IMG/VR virus record: IMGVR_UViG_3300031670_000019
Coordinates: 1 to 20,110 of that record
Source of the DNA: a virus
Strand: one strand, 5' to 3'
DNA length: 20,110 bases
The notes under the pieces were generated by a model. It searched no databases. It was not told the DNA's origin and saw nothing but the letters and a program-made list of their open reading frames with translations. The position numbers and the translations under genes are program-made. This document shows positions 4,181 to 19,407 of this stretch, piece after piece (positions within the stretch are counted from its first letter, which is position 1; each line of letters starts with the position of its first letter).

Positions 4181-4214
4181 AAGTGGCGCAAATGAAGTTC
4201 GCCACTTCTTTTTT
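4181..4214 (+). terminator. rho-independent terminator before the capsid gene
   Basis: AAGTGGCG (4181-4188) pairs perfectly with CGCCACTT (4200-4207) and is followed by CTTTTTT. It ends the scaffold-region transcript and implies that the capsid gene has its own promoter or depends on read-through. The same sequence is also the first member of the four-unit repeat described next. Confidence 0.85.
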
Positions 4215-4293
4215 AGTCGCAAGTGGGATTCGGCCACCCAGTCGCAAATGAGATTCGACAACTCATGACGCAAAATTAAGACTCGTCATCTTA
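4185..4293 (+). repeat. four tandem units able to form crossing helices (pseudoknot-like)
   Basis: Four imperfect units begin at 4185, 4216, 4241 and 4267 (spacing 31, 25, 26). Each has the order a - CAA - b - short linker - a' - b'. Helix a: GGCG 4185-4188/CGCC 4200-4203; GTCG 4216-4219/CGGC 4231-4234; GTCG 4241-4244/CGAC 4256-4259; GACG 4267-4270/CGTC 4284-4287. Helix b: GAAGT 4194-4198/ACTTC 4204-4208; TGGG 4224-4227/CCCA 4237-4240; ATGAG 4248-4252/CTCAT 4262-4266; TAAGA 4277-4281/TCTTA 4289-4293. Sequences change while pairing is kept, which indicates selection on RNA structure. Because a-a' and b-b' interleave, each unit is either an H-type pseudoknot or two alternative hairpins. Whether the units are transcribed together with the capsid gene is not visible. 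Confidence 0.75.
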
Positions 4294-4329: not shown

Positions 4330-6254
4330 ATGTCCATAACTACTACAAGTATTTTACCTCCACCAATTAAAGCTAGTTTTGATTTCAAGCTCCTTGCAGT
4401 ACCAGTACCAACAATGATTCACAATATACCTGCAATGAGAAGTATTCATCCTAGAAATGGTGGTGATGTACATAGATTTAGAAGGTATAATGCGTTGAAT
4501 ACTGCATTAGTACCTTTGGGACCCAGTGGTATGACACCACCTGGCCAGAATTTAACTGCTGTAGACATAGATGCTCAGATATCATTTTACGGTACTTTTG
4601 TGACTATTAGTGAGCAGGTCACATTGCAGAATCAAGACCCTAAAAAGTATGGGGTCGTTAAACTTTCTCTAATTGACTTGGAAGCCTACGGTATTAACTA
4701 AGGTGACAAGGGCGAAGGATTTTTTAACGGATGATTATGAAAACGAGAATTAAGATTACGCAATTCTTCAAGAAGTTTAATGCGCTGTTCATTTACTTCA
4801 GGAGACAAGAGTCTACTTCCGATATTTTTAGAAGTGAGTCTATATCTCATCATAACATCACATTGTTTCTTTTTGATAATCAAAAATGGCTTAACTTGCG
4901 GCAAAATATAATCGAGCATTGGTCCCGTAGCTTGCCAATTATAGACGGGGCGAGTGAATTTCTGTTTACTTGTCCATCTGTAGCGCGAATCTTTGGATCC
5001 ACCAAAAGTATTTTCCAACCAGATTATAAGTTCTTCATCGCAGCTAGTTATTTTAAGCATAGAATGCCATTGATATCCATTGCCATATTTTCCTTGTTTG
5101 GTATGACCAATATAAATACAACCTTCACCATCAATAAGGCCAGCCAAATAAGCGATTTCTGCAATGGAATGATGTGTATTAAACTTAACGATTTTTCCCA
5201 TAATTATCCTTACATTTATAACATTATAGCATTAAATGAAAATAAAATCCACGCTGAACGACTTAACGAGAGAGACTTTGAAAAAAGTATGCGAAAGTCT
5301 GAGCTCTTTTCGAAAGAAAGAGAGGAAGATCCGAAGAGGTTTTCCCGCCTAATAATAGGTCATAAAAGTAACAGAATGGTATTAAATGAAGCAGCTAAAC
5401 GTCTTGGTGTTTCCCTTAACAAGCTGGGGGAAGTAAAACTAAACCTGAATACCTTGGAACACCTAAGGGCACAAGCCTAAGGCAACCAGATGGAACTTGA
5501 CTAACTGAAGATGTGTCAAGACCAGCAGAGACTAAGCGGTTTAGAGTTGTATAATATCAACTATGCGATAGTCCGAACCTAAGCGAAAGTTTGGGAGGAG
5601 GGATTAACAAGACCTCCCGCCAATAAAAAATTGGTCACAAAAGTAACAGATAGCAGACAAACCGAAGATGAACTAACACGTAATATGTTAGCATCTTCAG
5701 CATCGTTTATAAACTGTGTTAATGGATTTAACGGTGATTCTCCTACTGAGATCACATTCCCGGATGTACAGAATATTGTTGCAACATTAATAGATAATAA
5801 TGCATATACTATTCTAGATGAAATACCGGGAGAAGACCGTTTTGGGACCGCACCAGTAAGAGAGGCGTTTTATGCTTTAAGTTCATCTAAGCTGATTCCT
5901 GAATTGGAAAATATGGATAGATTTATACCTAAATCTCAGTATCCTTCTTCAATGAGAGGATTACCGAGTGAATGGGGTTCATGCTCAAACTTAAGGTTCT
6001 TGGTATCCAGTATTGGATCATTCTTTCCAAATGCATCTGCACTAGGATCGAATGTGTATAATACCTTCTGTGTGGGTCTAGAAGCATACGCATATATCTA
6101 TCAAGACGGGTATAATGCGGAGTTCATCTATCGACCGCCAATTTTTTCGGGTCCATTAGCTCAAAATGCAACTTGTGGATATAAGATGGCAAGTGCTCAG
6201 CAAATACTTAACGATTTGTGGGTACTCAATTTACGTAGCACAAAAGCATCATAA
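4330..6254 (+). CDS. major capsid protein, N4-gp56 family; three exons 4330-4641, 5379-5416, 5654-6254
   Basis: Builds the icosahedral head. Joining the three exons gives 951 nt, or 316 residues plus TAA. Exon 1 encodes residues 1-104 and includes GQNLTAVDIDAQISFYGTFV and ISEQVTLQNQDP; exon 2 encodes VLNEAAKRLGVS and two bases of the next Leu codon; exon 3 continues LRQTEDELTRNMLASS. The restored order (P.G..L...DV.A....YG.Y..IS..V followed by NEA...LG and D.LTR) is the N4-gp56 capsid pattern as I know it. ATG 4330 follows AAGGATAAA. Unspliced, exon 1 would run to TAA 4699 and yield a 123-residue fragment, so the head depends on splicing. The next gene starts 8 bp after the stop. Family by memory; exon limits from pairing and frame. 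Confidence 0.9.
4642..5378 (+). ncRNA. group I intron 1 of the capsid gene, with an antisense endonuclease gene
   Basis: A 737-nt self-splicing intron. P1 pairs exon GACCCU (4636-4641) with GGGGUC (4651-4656), leaving the required U.G pair at the 5' splice site. P3 is UUCUCU 4665-4670/AGAGAG 5269-5274, P7 is GACUU 5260-5264/AAGUC 5295-5299 and P8 is ACUUU 5275-5279/AAAGU 5284-5288 closed by a GAAA tetraloop. The intron ends in G5378, and the first five exon-2 bases GUAUU can pair with AGUAU 4646-4650 as P10. The 5' splice falls on a codon boundary. The endonuclease gene sits in a loop probably closed by GGATTTT 4717-4723/AAAATCC 5244-5250, most likely P6. The core resembles intron 2 helix by helix. 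Confidence 0.9.
4698..5201 (-). CDS. LAGLIDADG homing endonuclease, antisense within intron 1
   Basis: A 167-residue protein with one LAGLIDADG motif, written YLAGLIDGEGCIYIG, at residues 18-32; D24, G25, E26 and G27 form the catalytic motif. Single-motif enzymes act as homodimers that cut an intronless allele so that repair copies the intron in. Later segments (HSMLKITSCDEELIIWLENTF at about 47-67, in two parts HSMLKITSCD and EELIIWLENTF, then a KPFLIIKKKQ block) are usual for the fold. ATG at 5201 has its own site, AAGGATAATT, on the minus strand. The gene runs opposite to its host gene, so it cannot be translated from capsid mRNA and needs a separate minus-strand transcript. Its last codons overlap the antisense of the intron core. 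The active state is inferred from an intact frame and motif. Confidence 0.92.
   Translation of the reverse strand: MGKIVKFNTHHSIAEIAYLAGLIDGEGCIYIGHTKQGKYGNGYQWHSMLKITSCDEELIIWLENTFGGSKDSRYRWTSKQKFTRPVYNWQATGPMLDYILPQVKPFLIIKKKQCDVMMRYRLTSKNIGSRLLSPEVNEQRIKLLEELRNLNSRFHNHPLKNPSPLSP
5379..5416 (+). other. 38-nt micro-exon of the capsid gene
   Basis: Encodes VLNEAAKRLGVS plus the first two bases of a Leu codon completed by C5654. Its first five bases serve as the P10 partner of intron 1 and its last six (UUCCCU) as the P1 strand of intron 2, leaving 27 nt with no splicing role. Skipping it would join 4641 to 5654 and shift the frame, so both introns must be removed separately. Confidence 0.85.
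5417..5653 (+). ncRNA. group I intron 2 of the capsid gene, without an ORF
   Basis: A compact 237-nt group I intron. P1 pairs exon UUCCCU (5411-5416) with GGGGAA (5427-5432), with U.G at the splice site. P3 is UAAACC 5440-5445/GGUUUA 5538-5543, P7 is GACUA 5530-5534/UAGUC 5569-5573, P8 is AGUUG 5545-5549/CAACU 5558-5562, and P9 is CCUAAGC 5578-5584/GUUUGGG 5589-5595 capped by GAAA. A further 3' hairpin uses GGAGG and CCTCC near 5596-5617. The intron ends in G5653, and exon CAG 5654-5656 pairs with CUG 5424-5426 as P10. Ending the exon at 5416 completes a Leu codon (CT+C) and restores the frame exactly. The 18 bases at 5633-5650 match intron 1 (5358-5375) in 17 positions. Confidence 0.92.
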
Positions 6255-17953: not shown

Positions 17954-18664
17954 ATGAACAACTCGATACCTAATCAGGTATATGGATTCAATAATGCGCT
18001 TACAGACAACTCACCTCCGCCTATAGTGTTAAATGTATCACCTGGATCTGCGAATTTAGCCAACATTGGCAGATTATGGATCAACAAATCTTTAAATACT
18101 GCATTTATACTTACATCTATAGTGGGTGGTGAAGCTTTTTGGCAGCCATTTTCTGGGAACGCTGCATTTACTTCACTGACTGTATTTCCTGGTCCGATAT
18201 CGCTTACTGGGGTAACTGAGATAAATACGAGTGGAGTAGCTACTACCACCATAGGTAATGCGTCATCATTTGTGGATATAAATGGATCTGTATTTATAAA
18301 TTGCATAGGATCTACAAATACCAATATTAATACTACTGGTACAGGTGCTGTATTTATAGGAAACAGTACAGGAGATACAGAAATATATGGTGGTAATTTA
18401 ATTATAAACGGTACAGGAAATATAGAAATATCTGGTGGTAATTTAATTATAAATGATGGAAATGTACAGTTAGTAGATAATGGCACTGCATTTATTCTTC
18501 CCGGTCCTTCACAGATTATTTCTGGAAGTGGGACGCCTGCAAATGGGTTAGCGATAAACACGGGTGATATATACGTAAATCTAACTGGATCTACTACCAC
18601 AAATAGGCTTTATATAGCTACGGCTCCGGGGGGACCTTGGGCCACATTTACGACTAGTTCATAA
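17954..18664 (+). CDS. fibre-like virion protein, first of a tandem paralogous pair
   Basis: A 236-residue, Gly/Asn/Thr/Ile-rich beta protein starting at ATG 17954 after AAAGGG. The start is fixed by its paralogue at 18685, which aligns from the first residues (IPNQVYGFNNALT versus IPSNLVYGFNQALT). Conserved N-terminal pieces are IGRLWINKS, AFILTSIVGG and FTSLTVFPGPISLTG. The middle is a stack of short repeats of the form G-x-I-x-I-x-G, typical of beta-helical fibre shafts, including a duplicated 15-residue unit (18380-18453). The C-terminus (NTGDIYVNLTGSTTTNRLYI, then ATAPGG) is again conserved in the pair. The shared ends suggest a common attachment to the virion and a variable shaft. Confidence 0.65.
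   Translation: MNNSIPNQVYGFNNALTDNSPPPIVLNVSPGSANLANIGRLWINKSLNTAFILTSIVGGEAFWQPFSGNAAFTSLTVFPGPISLTGVTEINTSGVATTTIGNASSFVDINGSVFINCIGSTNTNINTTGTGAVFIGNSTGDTEIYGGNLIINGTGNIEISGGNLIINDGNVQLVDNGTAFILPGPSQIISGSGTPANGLAINTGDIYVNLTGSTTTNRLYIATAPGGPWATFTTSS
18380..18453 (+). repeat. two copies of a 29-bp direct repeat inside the fibre-like gene
   Basis: The segment 18380-18408 recurs at 18425-18453 with 28 of 29 bases identical and an offset of 45 bp, exactly 15 codons. It encodes GGNLIIN twice, once after EIY and once after EIS. The near identity at DNA level suggests recent duplication of one beta-helix turn. Confidence 0.85.
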
Positions 18665-18684: not shown

Positions 18685-19407
18685 ATGAGTGTACAAATAC
18701 CATCGAACTTGGTGTATGGATTTAATCAGGCATTAACTGAGGCATTTCCACCACCCATTATATCTTTAAGGAATCCCACCACTAGTGACAAGACACAAAT
18801 AGGCAGAGGATGGATAAATACATCTGCGAATGATGCATTTGTATTGACCTCTATAGTAAATAACAGTGCGACTTGGATTAACGTTGGTGGCGGAGGCGGT
18901 ACATTTACTTCATTGACTGTAACTCCGGGGCCCATAAATCTTACTGGTACAACTAATATAAATACTGCAGGCGCTGCAGCGACAAATATAGGAAATATTC
19001 TTGCGGGTAATGGACCTACAACGATATTAGGTAGTGATGTAGTGATAGATGGTACCGGTATATTAGCCTTAGGAGAATTGACGGCTACTACCATAAATAT
19101 AGGAACCAGTAGTGCGGGAGCAATAAGCATAGGAAATGGTACTGCCATTACCATAACCGGAGAAACAGATGTTACGGGAGAGATAACAGCTACTGGAAAC
19201 ATAGTATCTACTGGAGGAAATCTTCTGGGAACAGCATTACAATTAGCTGGACCAATTAGTGTATTAACGGGAGCGGGTGCTCCTTCGGCAGGATTGGCAG
19301 CACAAGTGGGTGACGTGTATATAAATACGACAGCAGCTAGTGCTACCACAAGAATGTATATAGCAACTGCAGCATCGACTTGGACTAATGTATCTTGCGC
19401 TGCGTAG
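18685..19407 (+). CDS. fibre-like virion protein, second of the tandem pair
   Basis: A 240-residue protein starting at ATG 18685 after GAAAGGAAAAGG, 20 bp downstream of its paralogue. N-terminal agreement with it is strong (VYGFN.ALT, PPPI, IGR.WIN.S.N.AF.LTSIV, FTSLTV.PGPI.LTG.T.INT). The central shaft (about residues 95-190) differs, using NIGTSSAGAISIGNGTAITI and TGETDVTGEITATGN-type repeats. The C-terminus (QVGDVYINTTAAS, then RMYIATAAS) matches again. It has no Cys until the last residues. It ends in TAG. Like its neighbour it is probably an accessory tail or head fibre; binding specificity cannot be read. Confidence 0.65.
   Translation: MSVQIPSNLVYGFNQALTEAFPPPIISLRNPTTSDKTQIGRGWINTSANDAFVLTSIVNNSATWINVGGGGGTFTSLTVTPGPINLTGTTNINTAGAAATNIGNILAGNGPTTILGSDVVIDGTGILALGELTATTINIGTSSAGAISIGNGTAITITGETDVTGEITATGNIVSTGGNLLGTALQLAGPISVLTGAGAPSAGLAAQVGDVYINTTAASATTRMYIATAASTWTNVSCAA

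Follow-up and report, generated by a model that had tools for sequence, protein, structure and literature searches.

Described phage introns mostly number one to three per gene and lie mainly in genes for DNA metabolism. Capsid genes can also be interrupted. Splicing of the capsid intron of mycobacteriophage LittleE has been demonstrated by RT-PCR and N-terminal sequencing (PMC3706429), and the same paper cites a single capsid intron in lactococcal phage Tuc2009. Among the Bastillevirinae, genes carry up to three introns, and exon skipping has been reported in SIOphi (PMC11878797).

The window analysed here, 20,110 bases of viral DNA, is an entire IMG/VR record (IMGVR_UViG_3300031670_000019). 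Its major capsid gene is divided into three exons by two inserts (Table 1). Very probably, these inserts are group I introns that were acquired independently, each from a homing lineage of its own insertion site, with a micro-exon left between them. This reading rests on sequence comparison, and splicing, its order, and homing are inferred without RNA or protein data. A text search of the literature, confined to open-licence papers and therefore weak evidence, brought up no capsid gene described as carrying several group I introns. The earlier note on this DNA knew of no phage capsid gene with such an arrangement. That statement is too narrow, since capsid genes with one intron have been described (LittleE, Tuc2009) and the micro-exon pair recurs within this capsid family.

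Table 1. Features of the interrupted capsid locus (positions in the window)
Feature	Position	Strand	Description
Capsid exon 1	4330..4641	+	Codons 1-104, ending ...QNQDP; placed by contiguity in relatives and profile spliced alignment
Group I intron 1 (structural assignment)	4642..5378	+	737 nt at site 104, phase 0; the two ends hold the core, and the P6 region the endonuclease ORF
LAGLIDADG homing endonuclease gene (predicted)	4698..5201	-	167 aa; antisense to capsid, inside intron 1; motif YLAGLIDGEG
Sense open frame opposite endonuclease	4731..5480	+	249 codons from an ATG that follows AAGGA; continues in frame across the micro-exon and on into intron 2
TATAAT box preceded by TG	5223..5228	-	Probable promoter element of the antisense endonuclease
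Micro-exon	5379..5416	+	38 nt; codons 105-116 and two bases of codon 117 (VLNEAAKRLGVS + CT)
Group I intron 2 (structural assignment)	5417..5653	+	237 nt, no ORF, site 116, phase 2; RF00028 24.6 bits plus covariation
Capsid exon 3	5654..6254	+	Remainder of codon 117 through stop; profile spliced alignment

Joined end to end, the three exons form 951 nt, or 317 codons (316 residues and a stop), without an internal stop. The spliced protein matches PHROG 1357, ‘major head protein’ (E = 7e-28), and scores slightly below the Pfam cut-off for Phage_capsid_4. A scan of IMG/VR returned 484 stretches coding for capsid relatives, the best 80 of which are uninterrupted in the aligned segment, at 65–70% identity. 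In all 80 of these intact relatives, QDP-VLNExAxRLGVSL-RQTED runs without a gap, and the micro-exon residues are nearly invariant. The 38-nt island therefore supplies exactly the capsid residues that are missing. Boundaries were set with a GeneWise-like spliced aligner written for the analysis, using a profile built from the intact relatives, which placed intron 1 after codon 104 and intron 2 inside codon 117. Three claims of the earlier note were borne out. The frame of exon 1 does meet a stop inside intron 1 (4699–4701), the missing residues do form a short island, contiguous in the 80 intact relatives, with exon 3 resuming beyond the second insert, and the proposed splice points do restore the frame (312 + 38 + 601 nt), the profile alignment agreeing to the base. 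The 1925-nt capsid region is 100% identical in three separate assemblies (the window, L125, and L138), so the split gene is not an assembly error. At the level of sequence, a capsid gene of three exons and two inserts with these boundaries is thus confirmed. Neither the locus nor intron 2 had a blastn match among 50,697 phage records, and capsid proteins in phage records are only 22–26% identical to that of the window. The spliced protein would contain VLNEAAKRLGVSL, and the peptide region VLNEAAKRLGVSLR is predicted in the virion capsid protein.

Just upstream of the capsid gene (4185–4292) lie three to four small hairpin-like repeats with the loop CAARTGRRRTT, the stems of which change yet stay complementary (TGGCG/CGCCA, GTCG/CGAC, and GACG/CGTC). 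Apart from copies of the same virus, the repeat was absent from the other loci fetched. Two adjacent genes at 17954–18664 and 18685–19407 share similar openings (VYGFNxALTxxxPPPI) and are apparently tandem paralogues, low in complexity and fibre-like.

Homologous introns were collected with DNA patterns for the conserved capsid codons at an interrupted junction, followed by the spliced aligner. Among introns at site 104 (n = 53), P3, P7, P8, P9, P9.1, and P9.2 are paired in 90–94% of cases, against 27–53% in slid controls, and changes on both sides of the helix occur in 6 of 6 pairs of P3, 3 of 5 of P7, 4 of 4 of P8, 5 of 6 of P9, 7 of 8 of P9.1, and 2 of 4 of P9.2. Introns at site 116 (n = 24) show pairing of 90% in P3, 96% in P6, 87% in P7, 89% in P8, and 92% in P9, with both-side changes in 6/7, 3/3, 1/5, 5/5, and 6/7 pairs, respectively; P7 is nearly invariant in this lineage. 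In the core alignments, P1, P3, P7, P8, and P9 are paired in 87–96% of cells, well over the slid controls, and both-side changes affect some pairs of P1 and P7 and most pairs of P3, P8, and P9. The P3–P7 pseudoknot, together with P8 and P9, is thus backed by covariation in both intron lineages. The evidence for the P4–P6 domain is mixed: P4 of intron 1 is paired in 70% of cases, inside its slid control (maximum 73%), and in intron 2 pairing reaches 82% in P4 and 96% in P6. Weak helices in intron 2 are P5 and P9.1.

The splice sites carry the expected signals. A U precedes each intron (U4641 and U5416), and the P1 helix with U.G at the splice site and the terminal G that had been read from the letters alone are present in both, with a P1 of 6 bp in intron 1 and 8 bp in intron 2 and ends at G5378 and G5653. 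Across the collected introns, 278 of 281 end in G. The aligner had been set to favour U before introns and G at their ends, however, and these boundary counts are therefore not independent evidence. Codon 104 provides an independent test: T is the last base of this proline codon in 82 of 87 interrupted genes versus 70 of 167 intact ones, which fits the requirement of a U.G splice site. Of about 280 introns, 77% have a P1 of 6 bp or more, compared with 6% when exons of other sites are substituted; a strict scan missed it in 19 of 66 introns at site 104. The P10 pairings proposed for both introns fared less well. Short pairings can be read by eye, about 5 bp with two G.U in intron 1 and 3 bp (CUG/CAG) in intron 2, but they are too short to test and chance could explain them. 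Covariation is uninformative for P10 because the 3' exon is constrained by the protein.

The covariance search that the earlier note had suggested gave only partial support. RF00028 scores 24.6 bits on intron 2 (E = 2e-4), a value reached only in a short search, and only 11 bits on intron 1, both below the Rfam cut-off of 50, and Rfam over the whole window gave nothing useful. At its gathering threshold, RF00028 detected no intron in any of 13 related loci (L145, L150, L175, L174, L198, L227, L232, L272, L241, L234, L189, L334, and L105). As these loci bear many introns, the model itself looks insensitive, and capsid genes of this kind are likely to have been annotated as broken or missing. 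Consequently, the group I assignment rests on structure rather than on the library. On this footing, the identification of both inserts as group I introns, one on each side of a 38-nt capsid exon, is supported by covariation within site-specific lineages, and self-splicing is inferred in the absence of RNA data.

Kinship follows insertion site. Intron 1 is 71–78% identical, over its full or near-full length, to ten introns that all occupy site 104 in other phages. The nearest kin of intron 2 likewise share its site (116, second base of codon 117), and these relatives contain an antisense endonuclease insert of about 0.9 kb extra. Intron 1 would then be an endonuclease-bearing homing intron of the lineage that enters after codon 104, its LAGLIDADG gene lying antisense with a promoter-like box of its own. 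Intron 2 would be an ORF-less member of a lineage that enters after the second base of codon 117 and elsewhere bears an antisense LAGLIDADG gene. After late transcription, each intron is expected to excise itself by guanosine attack after U4641 or U5416, and ligation after G5378 or G5653 would unite exon 1, the 38-nt micro-exon, and exon 3 into a message of 317 codons.

The micro-exon had been supposed to serve with its two ends as P10 of intron 1 and P1 of intron 2, so that the introns might compete for it. Opposite ends are indeed so placed: the last 7–8 nt pair in the 8-bp P1 of intron 2, and the first 5 or so nt are a possible partner, no more than that given its shortness, in P10 of intron 1. 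The supposed competition finds no anatomical support, as the pairing ends do not overlap and about 25 nt separate them. A broader version would have the introns compete or cooperate over the short exon, with regulated or alternative splicing, such as skipping of exon 2, controlling capsid output. The shortness of the exon is in keeping with this idea, and exon skipping between adjacent group I introns has been reported for SIOphi and for Twort orf142, the latter as cited there (PMC11878797). It nevertheless appears improbable. Besides the distance between the pairing ends, skipping the micro-exon in the window would shift the frame and end the protein after QDPQTNRR, at about 109 residues, and such a truncated capsid is a waste product, not an isoform. 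In relatives with a 42-nt exon, skipping would stay in frame, yet the residues lost are conserved.

The 104/116 intron pair with its 38-nt exon also occurs in L150, L175, and L189, and a neighbouring 104/118 pair with a 42-nt exon occurs in L105, L114/L156, L126, and L334. On a capsid tree of 72 rows, the double-intron state needs six changes, and the two-intron arrangement, with a micro-exon of 38 or 42 nt, would have arisen about six times. The 13-codon exon is proposed to exist because two favoured homing targets, 38 bp apart, lie in the part of the capsid gene that is conserved most strongly. On the same tree, the introns at 104, at 116/118, and at 144 account for 8, 7, and 8 occurrences and need 8, 7, and 8 changes, respectively. 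Together with the grouping of related introns by site, this scatter is the pattern that homing leaves, and not that of vertical descent or local duplication.

Interruption is common in the family. In a frequency sample of loci picked by a C-terminal motif, and hence neutral to introns, 37 of 66 complete capsid genes carry one to four introns (29 with none, 16 with one, 10 with two, 6 with three, and 5 with four). Two genes outside the sample carry five, L234 and L371, the latter in a MAG labelled Parachlamydia; once spliced, their proteins align to the window capsid without gaps over 311 and 315 residues. Further well-supported internal exons measure 27 nt (L241), 34 nt (L091 and L115), and, elsewhere in the gene, 38 nt (L232). 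With the stretch of codons 88–97 left out, at least 17 insertion sites recur in three or more loci. Several loci have unreliable boundaries in that stretch, and the call of a 17-nt exon in L272 is poor; neither was relied on. Loci were sampled by exact degenerate patterns, and counts refer to the matches listed. Judged from these sequences, the capsid gene appears to be an unusually strong magnet for mobile introns.

The same census bears on whether the locus is a decaying pseudogene or a misassembly rather than a spliced gene. The capsid frame is certainly broken at the DNA level, but this explanation is scarcely credible in view of the three identical assemblies, the conservation of every exon, the exact restoration of the frame, the interruption of 37 of 66 family members, and the gap-free alignment of five-intron genes over 311–315 residues. 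That the inserts are inteins or another splicing element, which would likewise restore the gene precisely, can practically be set aside, since the frame of exon 1 meets stops in intron 1, its 737 nt (of 737 and 237) are no multiple of three, and the inserts have canonical group I helices, a P3/P7 pseudoknot, and U/G boundaries.

As for hosts, contigs of the relatives L369, L371, L370, and L372 were binned with Simkaniaceae and Parachlamydia, and also in Methanomicrobiales and Methylococcaceae bins. This hints that environmental chlamydiae might be hosts to tailed phages with such capsids; bin membership by itself is weak evidence.

The antisense gene in intron 1 fits both profile and motif expectations for a LAGLIDADG homing endonuclease (Pfam LAGLIDADG_1, 5e-6, 27.7 bits against a cut-off of 23.1; PHROG 5046, 2e-24). 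The TATAAT box upstream of it is probably its promoter element, judging by recurrence: in 16 of 50 introns, the 80 nt that precede the antisense endonuclease contain an exact TATAAT, versus 3.8 in shuffles. A generic promoter scan did not list the box. A free-standing HNH endonuclease gene lies upstream in the same genome (298–924; PHROG 374, E = 3e-47).

Opposite these antisense genes, the sense strand is open. Facing 40 antisense endonucleases at sites 104 and 116, a set in which some homologues were assigned on site and similarity instead of motif, the codon-aligned sense frame contains 35 stops per 8304 codons. The other two sense frames contain 426 and 893 stops, and the strand opposite 16 sense endonucleases has 341 per 5271 codons. 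On these counts the open frame is not due to chance. It is achieved by synonymous choice avoiding TTA, CTA, and TCA: across all antisense endonucleases, TTA and CTA together account for 8% of the leucine codons, and TCA for 4% of the serine codons, compared with 48% and 23% in sense endonucleases. Open sense frames span nearly the whole endonuclease length (the window, L098, L101, L105, L115, L181, L182, L188, and L205, among others). Most have an early ATG, many with an AAGGA-like sequence ahead of it. They occur in several small endonuclease clusters and in two large ones that stay apart at 45% identity, and both strands are also open in introns at sites 123, 137, 144, 213, and 281. A lineage at sites 88–92 (L345, L189, L198, L331, L354, L365, and L366) has antisense endonucleases without an open sense frame, at the same third-base composition.

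Of three other accounts of the frame, the first two were rejected and the third is not supported. Base-composition bias does not produce it, as the lineage at sites 88–92 has the same composition and many stops, and the other sense frames are full of stops. As for an alternative product joined to the exons, the window has the frame continuous with the micro-exon, but relatives do not show this consistently. A genuine second protein has no family match, and no extra constraint was seen: third positions of the endonuclease, which are first positions of the sense frame, evolve no more slowly (pos3/pos2 2.5–2.6, versus 2.1 in sense-strand endonucleases).

The sense frame at 4731–5480 is probably translated, by inference, though not as a conserved protein. 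The evidence tips only slightly towards selection on antisense endonuclease genes for a stop-free sense frame with an ATG, and often a Shine–Dalgarno sequence, which would let ribosomes cross the intron loop on the capsid transcript. What is selected is inferred to be translation through the intron and not its product, which need do nothing; the frame would act as a ‘ribosome track’ on the strand opposite a selfish gene. One reason for translating an intron may be to keep transcription from terminating where the RNA goes untranslated. No report of such an open sense frame was found in the same kind of text search, limited to open-licence papers and weak as evidence.

Compared with described phage introns, the family differs in degree and in place. 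The gene for the most abundant virion protein appears as an intron hot spot, with more than half of the family interrupted, up to five introns, many recurrent sites, and exons down to about 27–38 nt. This makes it possible to test how accurately several neighbouring ribozymes splice themselves in a gene that needs the highest expression, why homing targets are concentrated in a single gene, and by what means antisense endonuclease genes are maintained in it. LittleE resembles the window in having a major capsid gene intron preceded by U and ending in G, with a bottom-strand LAGLIDADG gene, but it is an unrelated phage with one 820-nt intron, typed only as ‘most likely a group I’, and no micro-exon (PMC3706429). 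Antisense, and also sense, homing endonuclease genes are described within the L2066 group I introns, though these lie in eukaryotic rDNA and encode His-Cys endonucleases (PMC9548176). Twort orf142, as cited in PMC11878797, is likewise a phage structural gene with more than one group I intron and ribozyme splicing; there are three introns, the gene is for a tail tube protein and not the capsid, and exon skipping is observed. In the Bastillevirinae, cDNA sequencing of phiNIT1 rNDPL revealed a small exon between two group I introns, as in the window, whereas introns there reside in polymerase, terminase, and nucleotide genes, with the capsid unmentioned (PMC11878797). As an isolated case, the window would extend these known phage introns, and the family-wide pattern adds to its interest.
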